Source: Verrucomicrobiota bacterium JB022
GTDB lineage: Bacteria; Verrucomicrobiota; Verrucomicrobiia; Opitutales; Oceanipulchritudinaceae
DNA length: 64,000 nt
NCBI GenBank assembly: GCA_030673845.1
Contig: JAUTCQ010000015.1
Location: 186,001 to 250,000 of the forward strand
Direction: 5' to 3'
The notes below the pieces were generated by a model. The model had not been told where the DNA came from. It searched no databases and worked only from the letters and a program-made list of their open reading frames with translations. Below are positions 10,576 through 49,986 of this stretch, piece by piece. Positions within the stretch are counted from its first letter, which is position 1, and the number at the start of each line of letters is the position of its first letter. Made by a program: the position numbers and the translations under genes.

Positions 10576-10798
10576 GGTGGCACCCCTCCAGGGTGCATTC
10601 CCGAGTTTGGAAAAACCCGGGGTGTCGATCCGCTATGGCGGATCTCAACCCCGCGCTAAGGGCTGGCAAGCCTCTGGCTTGCTGGATGATGCAGCATCCC
10701 GGAGGGATGCCATCCCTAAGCCGGTGGTTGAGGACGCATTGCGTCCGACACCACCGGACTATACCGTACCGGTGACTGCACCCTGAAGGGGTGCCACC
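10576..10798. repeat. ~223-bp intergenic element with terminal inverted repeats and nested hairpins (copy 1)
   Basis: The ends are 22-bp inverted repeats differing at one base: GGTGGCACCCCTCCAGGGTG at 10576 and its complement ending at 10798. Inside is a row of further hairpins: ATCCGC/GCGGAT flanked by GGGGT/ACCCC, GCAAGCC/GGCTTGC, GCATCCC/GGGATGC, and CCGGTGGT...GGACGC/GCGTCC...ACCACCGG. A second copy lies at 37783-38044 with the same internal order. No coding capacity. It behaves like a non-autonomous MITE or large REP-type element between convergent genes. Confidence 0.8.
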
Positions 10799-10823
10799 TC
10801 TGATCAGTCCGCTCAATGAAACA

Positions 10824-20359: not shown

Positions 20360-20448
20360 AACAGAAGTAAACGAAGAGAACAAAGGAGGTGAATAGGGCG
20401 CCATGACGCTCTCCACCTCCTTTTTTGTTTCCTTTGTTCTCCTCTGTT
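20360..20448. repeat. Intergenic inverted repeat between convergent genes; probable bidirectional terminator
   Basis: AACAGAAGTAAACGAAGAGA on the left is mirrored by the complement of ...TTTGTTCTCCTCTGTT on the right. The core stem is AAAGGAGGTG / CACCTCCTTT followed by TTTTG, a good terminator for the azurin gene. On the minus strand the arm precedes the end of nnrS. The arms belong to a family also seen at 33824 and 44183. Confidence 0.7.
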
Positions 20449-33823: not shown

Positions 33824-33987
33824 GAACAGAAGGAAACGAAGTAAACGAAGGAGTTTTGGAAAAAGGAATTCTGAACAGAAGAACGCGAAGAGCGCAAAGC
33901 GTGCTTAAAAAACAAAGCTGCCGCACCGGACCTTCGTGTTCTTTGCGTTCTTCTGTTAAAGAAAACTCTTCGTTTCCTTCTGTGAAC
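33824..33987. repeat. Nested double inverted repeat (CAGAAG/ACGAAG family)
   Basis: The outer arms are GAACAGAAGGAAACGAAG... (33824) and its complement ...CTTCGTTTCCTTCTGTGAAC (ending 33987). Inside are inner arms GAACAGAAGAACGCGAAG (33873) and the complement of TTTGCGTTCTTCTGTT (ending 33957). This gives four copies of one motif arranged as two nested hairpins. It fills the space between uppP and rpmF, which are transcribed in the same direction. Confidence 0.75.
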
Positions 33988-49512: not shown

Positions 49513-49582
49513 GCCGACACCTTTACCACCAAACCGCCCCGCGTGCAAAGGAAACCGGATTGGCACGGGAAGCGAACATTTT

Positions 49583-49591
49583 TGCTATACG
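49583..49591 (+). promoter_or_regulatory. Extended -10 promoter of the small-peptide gene
   Basis: TGCTATACG matches an extended -10 (TGnTATAmT-like). No strong -35 is seen at the right distance (TTGGCA lies 20 bp upstream). Transcription would begin near 49598, just before the 5' hairpin. Confidence 0.45.
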
Positions 49592-49618
49592 TTTGTTCCG
49601 TGTTTCTGGTAAAGAAAA

Positions 49619-49776
49619 AGTGTCACCAATGACGGTGACACTGTTCTTAGAAAGGAGGTGGTAAGTATGGATCCATCGTTGTTATTCGCGATGGTCATTC
49701 TGCTTCTGCTGATCGTGGCAACCAAAGCCTAACTTGGTCGTCACTCCCCGGTTTCCAGCCGGGGTCCTTTCTAAGA
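49619..49776 (+). other. Structured small mRNA with sequestered ribosome binding site
   Basis: Three elements are seen. (1) A 9-bp hairpin, AGTGTCACC / GGTGACACT, at 49619-49642. (2) A long-range perfect 12-bp helix between TCTTAGAAAGGA (49645-49656, containing most of the Shine-Dalgarno) and TCCTTTCTAAGA (49765-49776). (3) A hairpin CCCCGG / CCGGGG at 49746-49764 stacked just inside that helix. The helix encloses the whole small reading frame. When formed, it would block ribosome access to the AAAGGAGGTG site. Confidence 0.7.
49667..49732 (+). CDS. 21-residue hydrophobic membrane peptide (candidate type I toxin or small membrane protein)
   Basis: The frame starts MDPSLLFAM, continues VILLLLIVA and ends TKA, a single predicted membrane helix with a short acidic start and basic end. 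The Shine-Dalgarno AAAGGAGGTG is near perfect and 6 nt from the ATG, unlike nearly all other genes in this window, which lack clear sites. The peptide is too short for normal gene callers. Size, hydrophobicity and the RNA structure around it resemble type I toxin genes. A role as a small oxidase subunit or a leader peptide for ctaA (49987) is an alternative. Confidence 0.65.
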   Translation: MDPSLLFAMVILLLLIVATKA

Positions 49777-49780
49777 CTTT

Positions 49781-49808
49781 AATTTAGTCAATCTGCCTCT
49801 TATTTCAA
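49781..49808 (-). promoter_or_regulatory. Possible antisense promoter facing the small-peptide gene
   Basis: On the minus strand TTGAAA (49808-49803), a 16-nt spacer and TAAATT (49786-49781) match 5 and 4 of 6 consensus bases. A transcript would start near 49775, at the edge of the long-range helix arm, and run antisense through the small gene. Confidence 0.4.
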
Positions 49809-49986
49809 GCAAATCCGGCTACGGTGGGGCAGGGTGCATTTCGCTCAGCCTCGTTAATGGCGTTTTTACATTTCATTAGCGACGCTGTTAATACAAGTTC
49901 GTGCTGGTCATGACGGCAGAAGTAGCTTATCTGATGCGGAACGAAAGCGCTGCTACCGGCGATCACCCCCTTTCGTCTGATTTGCT

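Follow-up and report, generated by a model that had tools for sequence, protein, structure and literature searches.

Among type I toxin–antitoxin systems, Ibs/Sib is found in several copies per genome, with an antisense RNA encoded opposite the whole short open reading frame (ORF), and Ldr/Rdl of Escherichia coli has small hydrophobic toxins in tandem copies, the antitoxins being RNAs. Zor/Orz, also of E. coli, has tandem toxins of the same sort with RNA antitoxins, and IbsC, a peptide of 19 aa, stays toxic when shortened to 15 aa, provided that 10 or more of these are hydrophobic (PMC8309996). In AapA, the Shine–Dalgarno (SD) sequence of the full-length mRNA is masked by a long-distance 5'–3' interaction, several loci are present per genome, and the antisense RNA is encoded in cis (PMC6733600). 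Type I systems were previously found only in Proteobacteria, Firmicutes, and Tenericutes, a limited range that has been blamed on search methods relying on sequence likeness; a 2025 paper adds the first cyanobacterial case (PMC12390103). Here we analyze a locus in a 64,000-nt stretch of contig JAUTCQ010000015.1 from Verrucomicrobiota bacterium JB022 ("the window"; positions are counted from its first letter), where a 21-codon hydrophobic frame lies between the divergent genes SCO1 and ctaA. The sequence features make it likely that this locus is one member of a multi-copy family resembling type I toxin–antitoxin systems, best read as combining an antisense overlap like that of Ibs/Sib with SD masking like that of AapA. 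On balance, and with less assurance, we also take the family to be a new one in a phylum with no described type I family, a single helix closing the RNAs of both strands and the helices of the paralogues having diverged to locus-specific pairing; the bacterial group as a whole apparently has no previously described type I system.

Parts of the window locus

The preliminary description of this DNA had listed a 21-codon ORF, its SD sequence, a 5' hairpin, an exact 12-bp complementarity between 49645–49656 and 49765–49776, a GC hairpin, and a promoter-like pair on the minus strand, and all are present at the coordinates claimed. It had overlooked that the 5' hairpin and its T-run form a strong terminator on the minus strand. 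As the minus-strand promoter and this terminator in the 5' leader bound it at both ends, an antisense RNA of ~160 nt is predicted, which would span the SD, the entire ORF, and almost the full length of the two helix arms; the terminator hairpin doubles as the 5' hairpin of the sense mRNA. The parts are the following:

49555–49874, no strand: lineage-specific stretch of the SCO1/ctaA divergent intergenic region; the alignment with a same-genus species stops at 49554 and resumes at 49875
49560–49588, plus: candidate sense promoter TTGGCA-17-TGCTAT, weak, as a fraction of 0.0012 of positions reach its score
49612–49774, minus: predicted antisense RNA (predicted antitoxin), ~160 nt, deduced from promoter and terminator
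49619–49642, minus: terminator hairpin of the predicted antisense RNA, AGTGTCACCGTCATTGGTGACACT then TTTTCTTT on the minus strand
49645–49656, plus: SD arm of the long-distance helix, TCTTAGAAAGGA
49651–49660, plus: SD sequence AAAGGAGGTG (anti-SD duplex −12.9 kcal/mol)
49667–49732, plus: ORF of the 21-aa hydrophobic peptide MDPSLLFAMVILLLLIVATKA, predicted toxin
49746–49764, plus: GC hairpin CCCCGGTTTCCAGCCGGGG, immediately 5' of the anti-SD arm and in the equal position at all six intact loci
49765–49776, plus: anti-SD arm TCCTTTCTAAGA
49781–49808, minus: antisense promoter, TTGAAA-16-TAAATT

Most of these signals stand out from chance. The 203-nt region folds with a z score of −7.4 (0 of 200 shuffles as good), and shuffling the intergenic region 10,000 times never gives a small ORF equal in hydropathy to the 21-codon frame; every other hydrophobic small ORF in the window has a weaker SD. 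Opening the SD costs 12.4 kcal/mol, compared with 7.4 ± 1.7 kcal/mol when the 3' UTR is shuffled, and three of 300 shuffles reach 12.4. The best transcription signals at the locus are those of the minus strand: the promoter at 49808–49781 falls in the top 5.5e-5 of positions under a crude weight matrix, and the hairpin at 49619–49642 is one of only six strong terminators in the window, where 0.65 are expected. A 12-bp repeat is not rare by itself, occurring at four places in 64 kb, and the strand asymmetry of folding at the locus was not informative.

Further loci with the same architecture

We scanned for a short hydrophobic ORF with a strong SD, the antisense promoter not being a criterion, in the ~2.0 of 4.35 Mb of the genome that was read and in one same-genus species. 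In the remainder of the contig this turned up two more loci, both closely preceded by a minus-strand terminator, and a peptide search using one of the two recovered a locus in the same-genus species. A wider genome scan added three more, including a tandem pair 300 nt apart, and the total is seven: the window locus, five others in its own genome (one decayed, two forming the tandem pair), and one in the same-genus species. A strict scan of 2.36 Mb returned seven hits, every one of which starts with ATG and belongs to this kind, one being decayed; the reversed sequence returned two, both with GTG. The six additional loci are:

C15:12747: intact, peptide MNDPFVLVLVLLMILLIIRETNRDRR
C15:11704: decayed
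C17:255464: intact, peptide MDYLVALFLILLMIFLIVVAVGSITKQRDE
C13, two loci: tandem pair, peptides MEYLIVLFLILLVIFLIVLAVGSIIRQKDE and MEYLTILFLILLVIYLIIKQLKEQ
G001:C24:2741: same-genus species, peptide MIELIIVLLLILLILREDRRER

The three copies on C13 and C17 are related to one another, leaving about four independent lineages. At C15:11704 the terminator hairpin, SD, ORF start, and antisense promoter are kept, the GC hairpin and anti-SD arm are lost, and the frame continues beyond the usual stop; judged by these parts, it is a decayed member. The decayed and intact C15 copies stand on either side of an ABC transporter ATPase gene (L084 11704–12827, G000:C15), which suggests a duplication around that gene. 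The C13 pair (L221 11049–11712, minus strand) directly adjoins a ribbon-helix-helix (RHH) gene and a PIN-domain gene, which together make a VapBC-like type II toxin–antitoxin pair. About 300 nt upstream of the same-genus member is a tRNA-Ser gene, and insertions are common at such sites (L104 1085–1174 and 1495, G001:C24).

The peptides at these loci are 21–30 aa long and hydrophobic, the best 14-residue mean hydropathy being 3.3–3.9 at the intact loci, and C-terminal positive charges are present. Like type I toxins, they are shorter than 60 aa and have a putative transmembrane helix. Also expected of type I systems is an mRNA structure that hides the SD, and a cognate helix of this kind is found at all six intact loci: each has an SD arm, a GC hairpin after the stop codon, and an anti-SD arm directly 3' of the hairpin. 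The sequences of the arms differ, with TCTTAGAAAGGA/TCCTTTCTAAGA at the window locus, CCCTTAACcGGAGG/CCTCCaGTTAAGGG at the intact C15 locus, and TACCAAACATAaGGAGG/CCTCCTATGTTTGGTA in the same-genus species. When SD arms and 3' regions of the six intact loci are permuted, the cognate pairing ranks first of 720 and the minimum of each row falls on the diagonal. Since the bases of the helix have changed and each arm still pairs best with its own partner, these comparisons support a conserved RNA structure; as sequence features, the parts and their arrangement recur at all seven loci, the decayed one included, and cognate pairing is seen wherever the locus is intact. When the 3' arm is shuffled, the observed energy is reached at most once in 2,000 trials at five of the six intact loci and 27 times in 2,000 at the window locus. 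Truncating the 3' end lowers the cost of opening the SD at five of the six, which is what activation of the mRNA by 3' trimming would predict. We also considered whether, as in AapA, the 5' leader pairs metastably with the SD arm; this idea is unsupported (cognate rank 376 of 5,040).

On the minus strand just 3' of the ORF, all seven loci carry TTGAnn-16-TAnnnT, beside the anti-SD arm where that arm is present. The elements are TTGAAA-TAAATT, TTGATT-TATGAT, TTGAAT-TATCGT, TTGATC-TAAGTT, TTGACC-TAGGAT, and, twice, TTGACT-TAAGAT, and the background frequency of the pattern is 0.4% of AT-rich windows in the same genome. As the antisense promoter was outside the scan criteria, its recurrence is an independent test. 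A terminator-like minus-strand hairpin is found in the 5' leader of six of the seven loci, that is, at the window locus and five of the six others. Scanning for more members with the antisense promoter first was not discriminating in this GC-rich genome.

Searches for known families and homologues

The preliminary description had seen no named family in the locus, and profile searches bear this out. Rfam has no match of note at the window, C15, C17, C13, or same-genus loci, and Pfam, NCBIfam, and PADLOC have none for the peptides tested; PHROGs gave weak matches alone (E value 0.01 and worse), to families of unknown function or spanins, for one paralogue. A 6S RNA was rejected, as no covariance model match falls at the locus and the 6S gene of the genome is at C1:106630–106814. 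The window peptide and DNA, and a single-sequence covariance model of the locus, found only themselves or chance matches among relatives. A 33-nt match in genome G591 was set aside, as it lies in another hydrophobic frame with neither SD nor hairpins. Chance matches were all that came from a degenerate pattern run against public genomes and viral contigs and from a GC-hairpin pattern run against viral contigs, and the plasmid and phage collections held no convincing match. Outside its own genome and the same-genus species, order-wide profile searches gave weak matches only, and those fetched fail the strict scan.

Other palindromes in the window

Elsewhere in the window, 20364–20448 and 33824–33984 are long imperfect intergenic palindromes with the common arm text AACAGAAGnAAACGAAG..., the latter among the window's strongest fold-energy outliers; they probably represent a dispersed intergenic repeat or terminator family. 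The strongest fold outlier of all, on both strands, is 10576–10800, with the 12-bp inverted repeat GGTGGCACCCCT. A similar palindrome, GGTGGCACCCC, lies behind a promoter-like site in L207 (contig C1).

Discussion

The type I toxin–antitoxin reading put forward in the preliminary description is strongly supported, as the paralogues and the same-genus locus keep the SD-masking helix, the GC hairpin, and the antisense promoter. The window peptide has no sequence homologue in relatives, and the support comes from architecture: of the comparative evidence anticipated for the locus, a helix kept with changed bases was found at the paralogues and at one same-genus locus, whereas conservation of the window peptide in relatives was not.

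We infer both transcripts and the control mechanism from the arrangement of these parts, and membrane insertion likewise; toxicity is predicted from the type of peptide, by comparison with IbsC. The sense mRNA would encode the 21-aa membrane peptide, and after transcription the 3' arm, right behind the GC hairpin, would pair with the SD arm and leave the mRNA translationally closed. The antisense RNA, ~160 nt long, would start at the edge of the 3' arm and end at the minus-strand terminator in the 5' leader. Covering SD and ORF, it could pair with opened or nascent mRNA, blocking translation and exposing the mRNA to RNase III. If the antisense RNA were lost, or the anti-SD arm trimmed away from the 3' end, the peptide would be released, and it would then insert into the membrane of its own cell and damage it.

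Several observations weigh against this interpretation. The window locus shares its architecture with the other loci and has no significant sequence similarity to them; it has a weak sense promoter, the weakest long-distance helix in the set, and a peptide with just one positively charged side chain. In the full-length fold of C17 the SD core itself is barely closed (1.9 kcal/mol), and no T-run follows the long 5' hairpin of the same-genus locus. Searches outside the genus yielded no homologue.

The rival that survives best is a nontoxic small membrane protein, such as a stress-response peptide, that shares the RNA parts and is likewise controlled by antisense RNA and SD masking. Small membrane proteins need not be toxic, and the parts at the RNA level would look identical. 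We nevertheless consider it unlikely: double negative control, tandem duplication, a decayed copy, and rapid sequence turnover fit toxins better, and such control would presumably be costly for a harmless peptide. It is very improbable that the functional product is instead a trans-acting small RNA of the minus strand, with the anti-SD-like stretch CACCUCCUUUCU, and that the ORF is incidental. The minus-strand promoter and terminator do outrank the other transcription signals of the locus, but the shuffles never matched the hydropathy of the ORF. Although their DNA differs, all seven loci have a hydrophobic frame that opens with ATG behind a strong SD; these were scan criteria, but the same-genus locus was first found through peptide similarity and not through those criteria.

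We give even less credence to a leader function for the neighboring genes, be it an SCO1 attenuator, an upstream ORF of ctaA, or an oxidase-related peptide, for which the minus-strand terminator upstream of SCO1 could speak. SCO1 and ctaA, as identified with Pfam, point away from each other in this genome, as they do in many others of the order, and relatives keep the pair without the element; the paralogues adjoin an ABC ATPase gene or the RHH and PIN-domain genes, and the promoter-like sites for SCO1 and ctaA fall beyond both ends of the antisense unit. The oxidase-related gated peptide that the preliminary description had offered as an alternative, including any accessory peptide conserved with the oxidase genes, is therefore rejected. 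The normalized SCO1–ctaA gap is 475 nt here and 176–299 nt in genomes of the same family. Since the gap is longer here and the same-genus species does not align across 49555–49874, both flanks aligning, the element is most likely a recent insert and not a component of the oxidase genes. By sequence it is single copy. The same gap in the same-genus species carries an unrelated arylsulfotransferase-like gene instead (L080 1493–2845, G001:C34), so the two species took different inserts. That the insert is a small nonautonomous mobile element, with palindromes as transposition ends and the ORF as a by-product, has next to no probability: it would suit a lineage-specific insert with scattered paralogues and an imperfect 10-bp inverted repeat flanking the locus (49555–49564/49809–49818), a pair of terminal repeats that is present but weak, whereas no target-site duplication is seen, terminal sequences are not common to the loci, and the arms vary in cognate manner.

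Sequence searches with the window peptide or DNA failed, whereas a family with cognate pairing emerged once layout was the criterion. If the reading is true in this verrucomicrobial host, type I systems extend to another phylum, and the layout gives a search recipe: a strong SD, a short hydrophobic ORF, a GC hairpin with an anti-SD arm, and an antisense promoter with a 16-nt spacer. The paralogues form a natural set for testing the mutual insulation of such systems.

Among described systems, the loci resemble Ibs/Sib in their peptides of ~20 residues, almost all hydrophobic, in being multi-copy, and in the predicted antisense RNA opposite the ORF; they differ in that the SD is also closed by a long 5'–3' helix whose anti-SD arm adjoins a GC hairpin, in having no sequence similarity according to the family libraries, and in belonging to a different bacterial group. 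With AapA/IsoA of Helicobacter pylori they share long-distance SD masking, several loci per genome, and a predicted cis antisense RNA. IsoA3 is ~80 nt long, whereas the antisense RNA predicted here is ~160 nt and runs across the entire ORF into the 5' leader, where it ends, and the metastable 5'-leader pairing of AapA3 has no counterpart with support here. The tandem arrangement of small hydrophobic peptides recalls Zor/Orz and Ldr/Rdl, but the antitoxin layout differs and there is no family match. Like MsoT1/MsoA1 of Microcystis aeruginosa, the present family is a candidate outside the three classical phyla that came from a de novo search for features (PMC12390103); it belongs to another phylum, and its toxicity is predicted from sequence, whereas that of MsoT1 was tested.
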